Below are positions 2,090 through 16,326 of a stretch of 21,013 nucleotides of DNA, one piece after another (position 1 is the first letter of the stretch; each line of letters starts with the position of its first letter). The DNA lies in the IMG/VR virus record IMGVR_UViG_3300035698_016050, positions 1-21,013 of that record. One strand, 5' to 3'. The position numbers were made by a program, and so were the translations under genes. Under the pieces are notes generated by a model. The model made no database searches and had not been told where the DNA came from. It saw only the letters and a list, made by a program, of their open reading frames with translations. This stretch comes from a virus.

Positions 2090-2443
2090 TTAAAGTTCGT
2101 TAATGACTAATCTTAGACAGTTCAGTACTCCATGAGTCAAGAACAAGTGAGCAATAAACGGCTCTTGCTTTTTGGTGGGGTTAGAGTGTAGGATTCCTTC
2201 CATCGCATTCCAGCTGGGTAGTGATATATAATCAATGTTGCGTTGTAGCATATCACTGTAATAACTCAGCTGATCTTCTAACATGTAGAGTTTATCTTCG
2301 TTCATTAATCTGAATGTTAAGAGCATAGTATCAAGCGAATCGTCTGCGAATGAATCAACGAATGATTCCATTGCTTCGAGTACTTGATCTAGCTCTTCTT
2401 TTGACTGAGTTTGTTTTGTGTAGTTAGTTAAAGTAGTTGACAT
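2090..2443 (-). CDS. hypothetical protein, first gene of the left operon
   Basis: A 117-residue protein starting at the ATG at 2443 (MSTTLTNYTKQ). The frame extends further upstream to a TTG at 2530, but that part lies in a leader rich in inverted repeats and is unlikely to be translated. The body is helical and acidic (EELDQVLEAMESFVDSFADD, LEDQLSYYSDMLQRN), with a more hydrophobic C-terminus (FIAHLFLTHGVLNCLRLVI) that may be a buried amphipathic helix and not a true membrane segment. No family recognised. It is the first gene after the strong promoter at 2710-2738 and its about 260-nt leader, so it is probably an early gene. Confidence 0.7.
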   Translation of the reverse strand: MSTTLTNYTKQTQSKEELDQVLEAMESFVDSFADDSLDTMLLTFRLMNEDKLYMLEDQLSYYSDMLQRNIDYISLPSWNAMEGILHSNPTKKQEPFIAHLFLTHGVLNCLRLVINEL

Positions 2444-2470
2444 AGTAGTAGAGTTACTGTGTCGATAGTA

Positions 2471-2490
2471 AGAGGGGCGTTGACCTCTCT
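2471..2490 (-). promoter_or_regulatory. leader hairpin AGAGAGG/CCCCTCT
   Basis: On the minus strand AGAGAGG-TCAACG-CCCCTCT forms a 7-bp stem with one A-C mismatch and a 6-nt loop. It ends 27 nt before the ATG at 2443. A very similar hairpin lies 29 nt before the first gene of the opposite operon (3764-3794). Read on the plus strand the stem is followed by TTTTTT, but no plus-strand gene precedes it. Confidence 0.5.
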
Positions 2491-2500
2491 TTTTTATCGG

Positions 2501-2512
2501 CACAAATTTGTG
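2501..2512. promoter_or_regulatory. perfect 12-bp palindrome
   Basis: CACAAATTTGTG is a perfect dyad in the leader of the left operon. It could be a binding site for a dimeric regulator acting after transcription has started, or part of a leader structure. There is no other copy in the regions inspected, so its role is open. Confidence 0.3.
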
Positions 2513-2709
2513 TAAAAATTGCACCTTCAAAGGGTTTAGCCCTTATCTGGCGGTATTGGTGGGAACCAGCGTGAGCCAGTCCCCGAAACTAAGTGAATTG
2601 AATATGTAGCGTGTATTGATACTGCGTACAGTGACAATCACTTAGTGTTTTGAGGTTTCCAGCTGTTAATTTGTAGAAATTAGAGTGGTTACTGAATTTC
2701 TATATTACA

Positions 2710-2738
2710 AGTATATATTTTTTGTAATGTTTTGTCAA
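2710..2738 (-). promoter_or_regulatory. strong sigma70-type promoter of the left operon
   Basis: Reading leftward: TTGACA (2733-2738), a 17-bp A/T-rich spacer, then TATACT (2710-2715). This is the best promoter match in the window. Expected start is near 2703. It drives the 2443-to-452 block of small proteins, annealing protein and SSB. It lies 120 bp beyond the terminator of the preceding minus-strand gene, consistent with an independent transcription unit. Confidence 0.75.
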
Positions 2739-2858
2739 CTAAAACTTAAGATTTAAACACGCAGCCCTTTCTCTAAAGCACAAAGCCATTAAATAGCTGT
2801 CTTGCTTTGACAACTAAATGATAATGCCAAACTTTGTTAGCACCCTTACAAAGCTCAC

Positions 2859-2881
2859 AAAAAAAGACCCTGATACAGGGT
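2859..2881 (-). terminator. rho-independent terminator of the 2911-3444 gene
   Basis: On the minus strand ACCCTG-TAT-CAGGGT (6-bp stem, 3-nt loop) is followed by CTTTTTTT. It lies 30 nt beyond the stop codon at 2911 and separates that gene from the left operon promoter. The stem closely resembles the TTACCCTG/CAGGGTAA palindrome in the control region. Confidence 0.8.
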
Positions 2882-2910
2882 GCTATTATGTACTTTATAT
2901 TACAGGTAAG

Positions 2911-3444
2911 CTAGTCGCTTAGATCAAGAAACCCTTGCATGTCGCTGAACCATGGAGTTTTTAGTAATGCGACACCGCTCCTAACAAGCTCATTATGTGT
3001 GCCAAGCTTGAACTTAGCTTGTTTAGAGTAGAAGAAAGTATATCTCTTTTTACCGTTTACGTTTTCTTGTTTAAGCCCAATTTTATATATAAAAGCACAA
3101 AGATCACGGTACCTTTCTACTTCTTCGGCGTATACGTTACCCTCTTGATTAGATCGGAAATACCCATCTTCAACATAGTTATAGAATCCTTGCTTCGAAA
3201 GATAAGGCTCGAGGTATAATTCAAACGCATTATTGCGAGTAAGTGATCTCCAATCTCTAGGTATTTCTTTATAATTTTTCTGCATAGACAGACGAAACGA
3301 TTGGAGTACGTTTTTAGTCTGTGCGCTCGTGTAGTCGATGTCAGTCATTTGTAGATGTTTTATTAATTTTTTAGCCAGTTTTGGAACTGATAGGATATAC
3401 CTATAGTGCCTTTGGACAGTTTTAAATCTTCTATTTTGTATCAT
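2911..3444 (-). CDS. hypothetical basic protein facing the KilA-N gene
   Basis: A 177-residue, strongly basic protein (MIQNRRFKTVQRHYRY, KLAKKLIKHLQ, QKNYKEIPRDWRSLTRNN). It is rich in aromatic residues and probably mixed helix and strand; the C-terminal part (VNGKKRYTFFYSKQAKFKL) looks like paired strands. No catalytic motif or known DNA-binding fold was recognised. It is a single-gene unit with its own promoter (3524-3552) and terminator (2859-2881), transcribed away from the KilA-N/replication operon across a shared control region. In many phages this place is held by a regulator; a regulator of the divergent promoters is therefore an inference, supported only by position and basic charge. 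A nucleic-acid-binding early protein is the main alternative. Confidence 0.75.
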   Translation of the reverse strand: MIQNRRFKTVQRHYRYILSVPKLAKKLIKHLQMTDIDYTSAQTKNVLQSFRLSMQKNYKEIPRDWRSLTRNNAFELYLEPYLSKQGFYNYVEDGYFRSNQEGNVYAEEVERYRDLCAFIYKIGLKQENVNGKKRYTFFYSKQAKFKLGTHNELVRSGVALLKTPWFSDMQGFLDLSD

Positions 3445-3523
3445 ATCTTTAGGAATTTGTCAATATATCGTTTATCTTTACATCGCGCATTAAGATTGTA
3501 AGCAAACTTATGTAAACTTTTAC

Positions 3524-3552
3524 AACCTAGTTTAGTTGTTTATTGTTGTCAA
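3524..3552 (-). promoter_or_regulatory. leftward promoter of the divergent control region
   Basis: Reading leftward: TTGACA (3547-3552) embedded in TTGACAACAA, a 17-bp spacer, then TAGGTT (3524-3529), a weak -10. The start would be near 3517, leaving a leader of about 70 nt before the ATG at 3444. The -35 is the mirror image of the rightward one at 3566-3571. Confidence 0.5.
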
Positions 3553-3565
3553 CCTTAAATTTATC

Positions 3566-3594
3566 TTGACAACAACCTTTTATTTTATTACCCT
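3566..3594 (+). promoter_or_regulatory. rightward promoter of the divergent control region
   Basis: TTGACA (3566-3571) within TTGACAACAA, 17-bp spacer, then TACCCT (3589-3594), a poor -10 that lies inside the palindrome at 3588-3607. GTTGTCAA (3545-3552) and TTGACAAC (3566-3573) make an 8-bp inverted repeat with 13 nt between, so both -35 elements share one dyad. A weak second candidate is TTGAAT (3614-3619) with ATTATT (3637-3642), whose spacer holds another TTACCCTG. Confidence 0.5.
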
Positions 3595-3607
3595 GTAATC
3601 AGGGTAA
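3588..3607. promoter_or_regulatory. operator-like palindrome TTACCCTG-TAAT-CAGGGTAA
   Basis: Perfect 8-bp arms around a TAAT spacer, overlapping the rightward -10. A further half site TTACCCTG lies at 3624-3631. The arrangement fits a dimeric repressor site controlling the KilA-N/replication operon. The protein that binds it is not known; the KilA-N protein or the 2911-3444 product are candidates. TTACCCTG also occurs inside two genes (11764-11771, 19559-19566), so a single half site is not significant by itself. Confidence 0.5.
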
Positions 3608-3647
3608 GTTTTGTTGAATTTTCTTACCCTGCATTTATTATTTAGAC

Positions 3648-3662
3648 GTTACACATTGTAAC
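3648..3662. promoter_or_regulatory. small inverted repeat GTTACA-CAT-TGTAAC
   Basis: A 6-bp dyad with a 3-nt spacer in the leader of the rightward operon. It may be a second, different operator half or a small RNA hairpin. The weight of evidence is low because such short dyads arise by chance. Confidence 0.25.
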
Positions 3663-3763
3663 ACTTTGATTCCAGATAACAAGCAAATCTTCTCTATTGT
3701 CACTCAGTCGCTTTGTTATTGGTGTAGGTGAAAGCCCTACTCAATCAATTTTGTTGGTTTACA

Positions 3764-3794
3764 AGAGGGGTGTCAATTCATAAGTTACCCCTCT
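3764..3794 (+). promoter_or_regulatory. leader hairpin AGAGGGGT/ACCCCTCT
   Basis: A perfect 8-bp stem with a 15-nt loop (begins GTCAA), ending 29 nt before the KilA-N ATG. There is no T-run, so it is not a terminator. Its stem and the TCAA in its loop match the minus-strand leader hairpin at 2471-2490, which ends 27 nt before its own gene. Confidence 0.6.
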
Positions 3795-3796
3795 CG

Positions 3797-3816
3797 TAAG
3801 TCAATTAAATGACTTA
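3797..3816 (+). promoter_or_regulatory. second leader hairpin TAAGTCA/TGACTTA
   Basis: A perfect 7-bp stem with loop ATTAAA immediately after the AGAGGGGT hairpin and 7 nt before the ATG at 3824. In a gene without a Shine-Dalgarno sequence it leaves only AAAACTT single-stranded ahead of the start, so it could influence initiation. Confidence 0.5.
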
Positions 3817-3823
3817 AAAACTT

Positions 3824-4522
3824 ATGAACGATAATACTAAAACCCTAAGTACAACAGATATTTTTGAAGTAATTGATGGAAGAGTCAATTTAACTAAACT
3901 TGCCGTGTCAAAAAGCAAAGACATCAGAGAATGGTTGAGAAACAAATCAACGTCCGCATATATTAAAGCATTAGAGGAAGCTAGGGGGAATTGCCCACAG
4001 CTCAATGTTATTAATGGAGTTGGAACATTTGGAACACGTGAAGTAGCGATCAAGCTTGCTCAGTGGATAAGTCCAGAATTTGAAGTGTACTGCACTTCTA
4101 AGCTTGATGAGCTATTTTCAAAAGGCTACACGCAATCTAAAGAGCTAACCAGAAAGCAATTACTATTATTAGCACTTGAAGCTGAAGAGCAATTAGAACT
4201 ATTGCAAAAAGAGAACAAACAACAGCAACGAGTAATTGAAGATCAGAACATTTTACACGGCTCACTAATTAAACTCAAAGCAACTGAGACTAGAACAGCC
4301 CTGAAAGCCCTCAAAGATGATTTAGGGGCAGAGATTAATAGATGTGTCTATAAGCTCTTTGGTAATATCGAAAGCTTCAGGCAACGCCACGTATCAGCTC
4401 ATGATCTATACAAGCGAATGACGGGCAAAACATACCTCGGAGCAAAGAACTCAAGCTACGAATCAAAATGCGATTACCTCGAGTTCTTGAAGACACAAAT
4501 TAACAGACTAGAAAGCAATTAA
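3824..4522 (+). CDS. KilA-N domain protein
   Basis: A 232-residue protein. The N-terminal 100 residues match the KilA-N DNA-binding domain of phage and DNA-virus proteins: an opening hairpin (FEVIDGRVNLTKLAVS), a helix with DIREWLRNKST (about 33-43), then GVGTFGTREVAIKLAQWISPEFEVYCTSKL (about 65-94), including the hallmark G-T-x-x-x-x-x-x-A-x-x-x-A-x-W-x-S-P-x-F. A charged coiled coil follows (LEAEEQLELLQKENKQQQ, about 119-136) and a C-terminal domain (about 150-232) that ends at INRLES. Proteins of this type are phage antirepressor or regulator candidates. It is the first gene of the rightward early operon, so it could bind the palindrome upstream and autoregulate; this is inference. The junction TTAATATG couples it to the next gene. 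Confidence 0.85.
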   Translation: MNDNTKTLSTTDIFEVIDGRVNLTKLAVSKSKDIREWLRNKSTSAYIKALEEARGNCPQLNVINGVGTFGTREVAIKLAQWISPEFEVYCTSKLDELFSKGYTQSKELTRKQLLLLALEAEEQLELLQKENKQQQRVIEDQNILHGSLIKLKATETRTALKALKDDLGAEINRCVYKLFGNIESFRQRHVSAHDLYKRMTGKTYLGAKNSSYESKCDYLEFLKTQINRLESN

Positions 4523-4973: not shown

Positions 4974-5778
4974 AATAAAACGATTCAACAAAGGATGGAC
5001 ATCAGTCCCTAATGAATTATTAAACGATGATAGCATATCTTTTAAAGCAAAAGGACTATACGCATTTCTTAATTCTAAGCCAGATGAATGGGATTTCTCA
5101 GTTGATAGAATTGCATTGCAAAGCAAAGACGGCAAAGATGCGGTACGTAATGCTCTTCAAGAGCTACAAGCAAAAGGCTGGGTGCTAAGGACACCTGCTA
5201 AAAACGCTGACGGAACATTCAACGGCTACGATTATTGGATTAATGATACACCTAGAAAAGCAAAACCGTCGACGGGTCAACCGTCCTCGGGAAATCCGTC
5301 GACGGTAAACCCCGTCACCATTAGTAATAAAGAGAATAGTAAAAAAGAAGAAGTAAAAAAGAAGCAGGAAGAGCCTACAGCATCACCTTTTATAGAAATG
5401 AAGGAAGATAAAAAACTTGTGCAGTCTGAACGTGATGAAATTATTAATTTAATCAAACAACTTGTTCCCTCTCTCATGGAATATCCATCAATCGTTAAGA
5501 TCATAGAAGCGATCGAAGACAAACCAACAGATCAACGAGAAGGTTATATCAGATTTGTGATCCAAACAAAGAAGCCTAGTAAATTATATGAAGTACGAGG
5601 ATGGAAAGATTGGTTCTGGGCTGATTACTACGCAAAGGAGCGTAGCAGTGAGGAGGAAGGGAAAGTGTTAGTCCATACAAAAGAAGACTTAGCAGACTTT
5701 GAGCGTTTGAACTTGAACCCCTACGGTAGAGGAAAATGGGCAGATCAATTTAAACTTAACTCTAATAATTTAGTATAA
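4966..5778 (+). CDS. phage replication initiator with helix-turn-helix domain
   Basis: A 270-residue protein starting at the ATG at 4966, which overlaps the previous stop (ATGTCTAA); the frame is open further upstream but that part overlaps the previous gene. Residues 1-95 form the winged-helix domain typical of phage O/DnaD-like initiators: RFNKGWTSVPNELLNDDSIS, FKAKGLYAFLNSKPDEWDFS, ALQSKDGKDAVRNALQELQA, KGWVLRTPAKN. Residues 101-117 are a low-complexity linker (PSTGQPSSGNPSTVNP), encoded by three 15-bp units, followed by a lysine/glutamate-rich stretch. The C-terminal domain (about 150-230) is helical, with a conserved-looking EVRGWKDWFWADYYAKE motif. The likely role is to bind the origin and load the host helicase. 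No helicase or helicase loader gene is visible in the window, so the C-terminus may recruit the host enzyme. Confidence 0.82.
   Translation: MSKIKRFNKGWTSVPNELLNDDSISFKAKGLYAFLNSKPDEWDFSVDRIALQSKDGKDAVRNALQELQAKGWVLRTPAKNADGTFNGYDYWINDTPRKAKPSTGQPSSGNPSTVNPVTISNKENSKKEEVKKKQEEPTASPFIEMKEDKKLVQSERDEIINLIKQLVPSLMEYPSIVKIIEAIEDKPTDQREGYIRFVIQTKKPSKLYEVRGWKDWFWADYYAKERSSEEEGKVLVHTKEDLADFERLNLNPYGRGKWADQFKLNSNNLV
5266..5374. other. candidate replication origin inside the initiator gene
   Basis: Three consecutive 15-bp units at 5266-5280, 5281-5295 and 5296-5310. Units 1 and 3 contain the perfect palindrome CCGTCGACGG and unit 2 the variant CCGTCCTCGG; a degenerate fourth (CCGTCACC) follows. They are conspicuously GC-rich in an AT-rich genome. 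Immediately to the right (about 5327-5374) the top strand is almost only A and G, an easily melted tract. Iterons with dyads in the linker part of the initiator gene, followed by an A-rich tract, is the layout of the lambda origin in gene O. Established for lambda; inferred here. Confidence 0.55.
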
Positions 5779-12928: not shown

Positions 12929-12950
12929 TCAACCACATACATACATAGAG

Positions 12951-12978
12951 AGAGGGGGAGACGTCCCCTTCTTTTTTT
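12951..12978 (+). terminator. strong rho-independent terminator after the coat gene
   Basis: AGAGGGGGA-GACG-TCCCCTTCT forms a 9-bp stem (one G-U) with a 4-nt loop, followed by a run of seven T. It lies 22 nt beyond the coat stop codon and is the strongest terminator in the window. Confidence 0.92.
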
Positions 12979-15032: not shown

Positions 15033-15064
15033 CAAGGTATGATTAAAGAAGTTGCCTTCAGATA

Positions 15065-15122
15065 GGCAGGCTAAACCCGTCGCCTGCCCATCTTATACAT
15101 ATATTTTGATAAGATAACGGGT
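15065..15122 (+). promoter_or_regulatory. pseudoknot-capable leader of the major tail gene
   Basis: Two perfect 7-bp hairpins: GGCAGGC (15065-15071) with GCCTGCC (15082-15088), loop of 10 nt; and ATCTTAT (15090-15096) with ATAAGAT (15109-15115), loop of 12 nt. The first loop contains ACCCGT (15075-15080), exactly complementary to ACGGGT (15117-15122) after the second hairpin. The major tail start is at 15134 with no Shine-Dalgarno sequence. There is no T-run, so this is not a simple terminator. Confidence 0.6.
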
Positions 15123-15745: not shown

Positions 15746-16033
15746 ATGAGAACTATAAAACTATCATACGAAGGAATCGGAGAAGTAGAAGTACAGCTTG
15801 CTGTAGGTAAGAAAATGCTTGAACTTAATAAGCTATCTAACAAGCTTGTAGGTGAAAAGGCTACTGACCAGCAACAAGAAGACGATCTTAACGTTATGTG
15901 TGAGATCGTCTCTAAGTGTACTAAATACACGCAAGAAGAAGTCTTAGATATGTTTGCGCAGTTTGAACTCTTAGAGCTGGTTAAAGTTATTAATGGAGAT
16001 CGTGAATCAATAAAAAAAGCGACTGGCTCGTAG
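15746..16033 (+). CDS. tail assembly chaperone, short (gpG-like) form
   Basis: A 95-residue protein located between major tail protein and tape measure, the position of the lambda G/T chaperones. Residues 1-40 are beta (TIKLSYEGIGEVEVQLAVGK), the rest is helical and acidic (EDDLNVMCEIVSKCTKYTQEE, MFAQFELLELVKVINGD). The frame ends at a TAG at 16031-16033 within a hairpin that follows a slippery A7 run, so a fraction of ribosomes should shift into the -1 frame and make the longer form. It keeps the tape measure soluble and recruits tail subunits. No sequence family was recognised; the call rests on position and frameshift. Confidence 0.78.
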   Translation: MRTIKLSYEGIGEVEVQLAVGKKMLELNKLSNKLVGEKATDQQQEDDLNVMCEIVSKCTKYTQEEVLDMFAQFELLELVKVINGDRESIKKATGS

Positions 16034-16326
16034 ATTATTACGAGCTTAGACTTTTAGGATTTAGTGCTAGCGAGATTGAAGAATTTACAAACAAAGACTT
16101 ACAAGCAATTGATCTCGCACGCTCTAACATACTCTACCATAACAACACAATTGATATATTGCTTGAGAATTACTCATTCTACCTTAATAACGATCCAAAC
16201 AACCGTAATAGAAAGGAGATCCTAGATCTCTTAACAGGAAAGGAAGAAAGTAAAAAGCAAGTAGCAAAAAGCGTATATGAAAGCTTAGATATAGACATTG
16301 AAAAGACGGGGGAAACTTTTAACTAA
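15746..16326 (+). CDS. tail assembly chaperone, frameshifted long (gpGT-like) form
   Basis: Expected product of a -1 shift, joining 15746-16018 to 16018-16326: 91 codons of the short form plus 102 codons in the -1 frame, 193 residues. The extension begins SDWLVDYYELRLLGFSASEI and ends EKTGETFN. It contains no methionine codon, so it cannot easily be translated by itself, and it is open for its whole length to a TAA that overlaps the tape measure ATG (TAATG). The domain would correspond to lambda gpT, which binds the tape measure. Standard gene callers would miss this product. Confidence 0.85.
16012..16045 (+). promoter_or_regulatory. -1 programmed ribosomal frameshift signal
   Basis: Slippery heptamer A AAA AAA (16012-16018) in the correct phase, a 7-nt spacer, then a perfect 7-bp stem GCTCGTA (16026-16032) with TACGAGC (16039-16045) and loop GATTAT. 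The zero-frame stop TAG lies in the stem and loop. Heptamer, spacing and stem all fit the established signal for bacterial and phage -1 shifts. Confidence 0.88.

Follow-up and report, generated by a model that had tools for sequence, protein, structure and literature searches.

The window analysed here is a single IMG/VR virus record of 21,013 bases, in which divergent gene sets are separated by a control region of approximately 1.4 kb that itself contains one leftward gene (2911-3444). The leftward genes of the window comprise that for a single-stranded DNA-binding protein (SSB; 452-826) and four others, and the rightward genes encode a KilA-N protein, a replication-initiation protein, dCTP deaminase, terminase, portal, capsid and tail proteins. 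The terminase, KilA-N protein and SSB have weak matches, among them cyanophages, Planktothrix phage PaV-LD and an Acaryochloris plasmid. For two neighbouring proteins, the AlphaFold models were of too low a quality for searching (mean pLDDT 47 and 52). The features discussed below are listed in table 1.

Table 1. Genes and leader structures of the two divergent operons, and terminator-like sites of the window.
Feature	Position	Strand	Details
First gene of left operon	2090-2443	-	117 aa, without family match
First gene of right operon	3824-4522	+	KilA-N domain protein, 232 aa; Pfam PF04383, E 1.5e-15
Right long hairpin	3748-3810	+	Inverted repeat in KilA-N operon leader; 24-nt arms, 79% complementary; 15-nt loop
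Candidate pseudoknot, stem 1	3764-3794	+	AGAGGGGU (3764-3771) / ACCCCUCU (3787-3794), 8 bp
Candidate pseudoknot, stem 2, 5′ strand (inside loop)	3777-3786	+	UUCAUAAGUU; exact reverse complement of 3819-3828
Candidate pseudoknot, stem 2, 3′ strand	3819-3828	+	AACUUAUGAA; includes KilA-N start codon 3824-3826
Filler hairpin between pseudoknot strands	3797-3816	+	UAAGUCA/UGACUUA, 7 bp (3797-3803/3810-3816), -6.2 kcal/mol
Probable leader RNA, left operon	2443-2703	-	Downstream of TTGACA-N17-TATACT (2738-2710), promoter match 11/12
Start-codon hairpin, left operon	2438-2463	-	GACA-C-AGUA/UACU-A-UGUC; 3′ arm includes U and G of AUG
Left long hairpin	2458-2504	+	Core AAGAGGGG-CGTTGA-CCTCTCTT, 2470-2491; outer stem GTGTCGATA/TATCGGCAC
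Terminator-like site	349-371	both	Past end of left operon
Terminator-like site	2885-2865	-	Behind 2911-3444 gene
Terminator-like site	12950-12973	+	Behind capsid gene; also with AGAGGGG

Good pairing to the anti-Shine–Dalgarno sequence is found at one of the 29 gene starts in the window (that of the gene at 16326), with hardly any Shine–Dalgarno sequence elsewhere, and the same 29 starts are less structured than random sites. For mRNAs that lack a Shine–Dalgarno sequence, an unstructured start codon region has been proposed to be both necessary and sufficient (PMC3121790), and the scarcity of such sequences in the window, together with the low structure of its gene starts, fits initiation by exposed AUGs (PMC3121790).

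The 70-nt region upstream of the KilA-N start is the most stable among the 29 gene starts (-21.0). The long hairpin of this leader computes to -23.5 kcal/mol and contains a perfect stem of 8 bp (z -3.8) that forms part of the longer repeat with arms of 24 nt. The loop stretch TTCATAAGTT (3777-3786) is an exact reverse complement, over 10 nt, of AACTTATGAA (3819-3828) around the ATG, and this complementarity, absent from the original prediction, could form a second stem of 10 bp over the start codon. Stem 1 and the pairing between loop and start would together give a compact H-type pseudoknot with GUCAA as loop 1, in which the AUG would be hidden; nearly the whole of the linker is occupied by the filler hairpin, leaving few bases unpaired. 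The window holds a single pseudoknot with a first stem of at least 8 bp and a second of at least 10 bp; an equal one turned up in 3 of 400 shuffled genomes (either strand), and a second stem of 10 was reached in 25 of 20,000 shuffles in which stem 1 was given, figures that concern a structure noticed post hoc.

The two folds of the right leader are mutually exclusive, because the filler hairpin draws on the same bases as the lower part of the long hairpin. Standard folding without pseudoknots favours the long hairpin. By a rough estimate the two folds may lie close in energy, with -18.5 kcal/mol for stem 1 plus the filler hairpin and -8.8 kcal/mol for the stem 2 duplex alone, before any pseudoknot penalty. 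The motif AACTTATG is present in three copies in the window, all of them within 3505-3826 (the third at 3505) and none outside the control region; as an alternative to start-masking pairing, these copies would be compatible with a DNA-binding motif. BLAST matched 3503-3547 to part of a tail gene in the IMG/VR record L003, a likeness ascribed to chance. Rfam returned weak matches only, under the gathering score, mostly between the long right hairpin and eukaryotic miRNA families.

The left operon is preceded by a leader that as a whole is strongly structured (fold z -5.4), with leftward transcription inferred to start near 2703 from the best promoter match. Its start-codon hairpin has a computed energy of -6.6 kcal/mol alone and appears in the predicted folds of the leader. 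The long hairpin within this leader is stronger when read in the opposite direction: the full structure folds to -25.8 kcal/mol (z -6.8 against shuffles) on the plus strand and to -17.3 kcal/mol (z -4.5) on the minus strand, a difference of 8.5 kcal/mol that arises because the two positions of imperfect pairing form G·U pairs on the plus strand and A·C mismatches on the minus strand. When the whole window was folded in sliding segments, this hairpin and the right one both ranked among the ten strongest places. The 7-nt stem of the left hairpin is unexceptional alone (-6.1 kcal/mol, z -1.8, equalled in 13 of 200 shuffles).

On the plus strand the core of the left hairpin resembles a terminator, since AAGAGGGG CGTTGA CCTCTCTT is followed directly by TTTT, and terminator scans pick out a stable short-loop stem followed by a T-tract, as in intrinsic terminators. 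A second scan gave four terminator-like sites in the window that we judge to be clean, the left hairpin among them; the other three all lie behind genes or operons. Immediately upstream of the left element, no open reading frame of 50 aa or more ends on the plus strand, from which we infer an insulating role against antisense read-through. No plus-strand gene or promoter that would need a terminator at 2491 was found, which counts against a terminator there. Elsewhere in the left leader, 2522-2650 holds more strong hairpins without an Rfam match, and for one of them (about 2562-2585) full pairing is confined to the minus strand.

The original prediction held that one and the same hairpin stands before both operons at nearly the same distance from the ATG. 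Its positions and spacing are borne out, as the left repeat stops at 2471, leaving 27 nt to the ATG (2443-2441, minus strand), and the right repeat stops at 3794, leaving 29 nt to the ATG at 3824. The analysis supports structured leaders ahead of both operon-heading genes, and the inverted repeats are present, each running further than had been described (table 1). A GAGG/CCTC stem occurs in both and is perfect over 8 bp on the right, but the left 7-nt stem (AGAGAGG/CCCCTCT) carries an A·C mismatch on the sense strand; the AA said to precede both is found before the left repeat, and the 8-bp stem on the right follows CA. What the leaders share is one 7-nt stem and TCAA. The loops differ in size (6 and 15 nt), and a local alignment of the 80-nt leaders is equalled by 52% of shuffles in the operon sense and by 12.5% when both are taken on the plus strand.

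The joint occurrence of like hairpins at like distances, defined as a hairpin in both leaders with arms at least 6/7 alike and distances no more than 5 nt apart, was seen in 25 of 6000 shuffles, and in 1 of 6000 when 7/7 arms were required and either strand was allowed. Among the 406 pairs of gene leaders in the window it occurs twice, the other pair being AT-rich. Given two 8-bp hairpins, the arms agree at 7/8 positions in 0.5-1.8% of pairs. The pattern AAGAGRGG-N2-18-CCYCTCT, which was derived from these two sites, has no other occurrence in the window (0.00 expected). The likeness is thus suggestive and modest, at approximately 1 in 250 post hoc and before allowing for the free choice of the original reader. 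The motif CAAWTTTG lies a short way upstream of both hairpins, which is curious, although the window is expected to hold three matches by chance.

Our preferred reading, which we hold tentatively, is that the two hairpins are different cis elements, the right one a leader that would mask a start codon and the left one a rightward terminator, with the G-rich stem common to both repeats owed partly to chance. This reading must put the like stems at like distances down to chance, which counts against it. On the right, the loop would base-pair with the 10-nt stretch surrounding the KilA-N start codon to form the pseudoknot and thereby control translation; alternatively, the stem's 3′ flank would pair with its 5′ flank to form the long hairpin, freeing the AUG from loop pairing. 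In a phage with almost no Shine–Dalgarno sequences, exposure of the AUG should decide initiation, and the two folds would therefore represent off and on states. Candidates for shifting the balance between them are a protein (possibly the KilA-N protein itself) or ribosome supply. On the left, the element would act mainly as an intrinsic terminator on the plus strand that keeps rightward transcription out of the control region, and the leftward transcript would read through it in its weaker orientation. On that strand it resembles intrinsic (rho-independent) terminators, such as that behind the capsid gene, in having a G+C-rich stem, a 6-nt loop and a T-tract, and differs in lying antisense inside the leader of the leftward operon and in having a second, outer stem.

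Leader pseudoknots with a role in translation are known from other systems. In the rpsO leader, pseudoknot and hairpin are alternative folds at the initiation region, and a like alternation is what we propose for the right leader; rpsO differs in being a ribosomal protein gene with its own ligand. The translational operator of Escherichia coli rpsO (S15) contains a pseudoknot (PMC3014915), as does the mRNA leader of gene 32 in phages T4, T2 and RB69, where the structure serves translational autoregulation and, in T4, lies 67 nt upstream of the start and nucleates SSB binding (PMC3014915). The gene 32 leader is likewise that of a phage early gene, with a possible pseudoknot near the start codon and proposed translation control being the points of likeness, but in the present case the start codon itself would form part of the second stem, the gene would be a KilA-N regulator rather than SSB, and the two leaders have no sequence relation. 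The likeness to gene 32 and rpsO would lie in how the right leader could work, and we claim no family membership beyond the pairing. Were the right leader to work in this way, it would add a phage leader pseudoknot that captures the start codon itself, and initiation without a Shine–Dalgarno sequence would be switchable by masking the AUG alone; if not, the locus would hold an ordinary pair of phage leader hairpins.

It is unlikely, in our estimation, that the repeats instead form a shared DNA operator, in which inverted AGAGGGG half-sites in both leaders are bound by one dimeric regulator that acts as a roadblock or repressor. AGAGGGG occurs four times in the window versus 1.1 expected, with three of these at the two repeats, and an imperfect left half would be tolerable in a DNA site. 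The half-sites are spaced 13 and 24 bp apart, start to start, and the difference of 11 bp is close to one helical turn and would place them on the same face of the DNA, an argument that is weak because there are only two sites. An operator would, however, leave unexplained the long outer arms of both repeats and the complementarity between loop and start, and the sites are downstream of the likely promoters.

Equally unlikely is that these are plain 5′ hairpins that stabilize or insulate the mRNA, have no specific partner and resemble one another by chance. Both are 27-29 nt from an ATG, and a strong hairpin also precedes another gene that follows a gap, g24 (15134), whose upstream 70 nt fold to -18.6 kcal/mol. 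The sole strong left promoter is nevertheless more than 200 nt upstream, so the left hairpin would not be at the 5′ end, and the 10-nt complementarity between loop and start would be unaccounted for. In the hairpin ahead of the 15134 gene (15059-15122), the loop sequence ACCCGT complements a downstream ACGGGT, possibly a second leader pseudoknot found by eye.

Still more doubtful is the original proposal of one shared RNA hairpin (AAGAGRGG, a loop with TCAA, then CCCCTCT), through which a single phage factor would control translation or antitermination of both operons. The joint match of stem and distance, its rarity among leader pairs in the window and the restriction of the pattern to both leaders all favour it. 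Against a single RNA-binding factor, however, stand the differing loops, the sense-strand mismatch and the better folding of the left element on the antisense strand; the leader alignment is at chance level, and no boxA or Rfam match was identified. Lambdoid nut/boxB and HK022 put sites, which serve antitermination, likewise place hairpins in both leaders of a divergent pair of phage early operons, but the loops here are not of a conserved size and no protein resembling N was identified. Least probable of all is a composite in which one regulator reads the AGAGGGG inverted repeats of both operons and also sets a bistable right leader whose loop captures the start codon, thereby coupling the operons in a phage that lacks Shine–Dalgarno sequences.

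As the original prediction had proposed, a covariance model was built from both leaders; it detected no additional copy in the window, among the IMG/VR relatives L002-L005 and L010, or at the other loci (L006, L007 and L009). The single remaining match with a credible score is in L012, inside a coding sequence that had been fetched by the same motif, and there was one weak match besides (E 2.3); the copy of the left core in L012, which came from a pattern scan of IMG/VR, belongs to a phage without detectable relation and is taken as chance. DNA pattern scans of IMG/VR returned zero copies of the right loop/start pattern. No relatives with this early region or its leaders were found in IMG/VR or the genome collection. 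IMG/VR was queried with the KilA-N protein, the large terminase, the capsid, the 829-1413 protein and the first left gene. Through the capsid, L002-L005 were reached (69-76% at the amino acid level), and their compared sequence matches none of the window's early genes; the 829-1413 protein led to distant phages only, and the remaining three queries to nothing, as did capsid and terminase alignments in the genome collection.

Other elements were observed in the control region and beyond. At 3588-3641, the palindrome TTACCCTGTAATCAGGGTAA and a further half-site TTACCCTGCA overlap a promoter-like TTGAAT-N16-TATTAT on the plus strand and are likely to serve the right operon as a repressor operator; their ACCCTG/CAGGGT core is also present in the terminator-like repeat at 2867-2881. 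TTGWCAA has five copies in the control region (2732-3572) and 11 in the window, versus 5.2 expected. A Bacteroidota-type promoter (TTTG-N19-TANNTTTG) is not above chance. Ahead of the tape-measure-like gene, two short open reading frames in different frames (15746-16326) might encode a frameshifted tail chaperone, to judge by position only. Inside the replication-initiation gene, the palindrome CCGTCGACGG occurs twice at 5267-5308, where it forms the strongest fold of the window and is a candidate origin.
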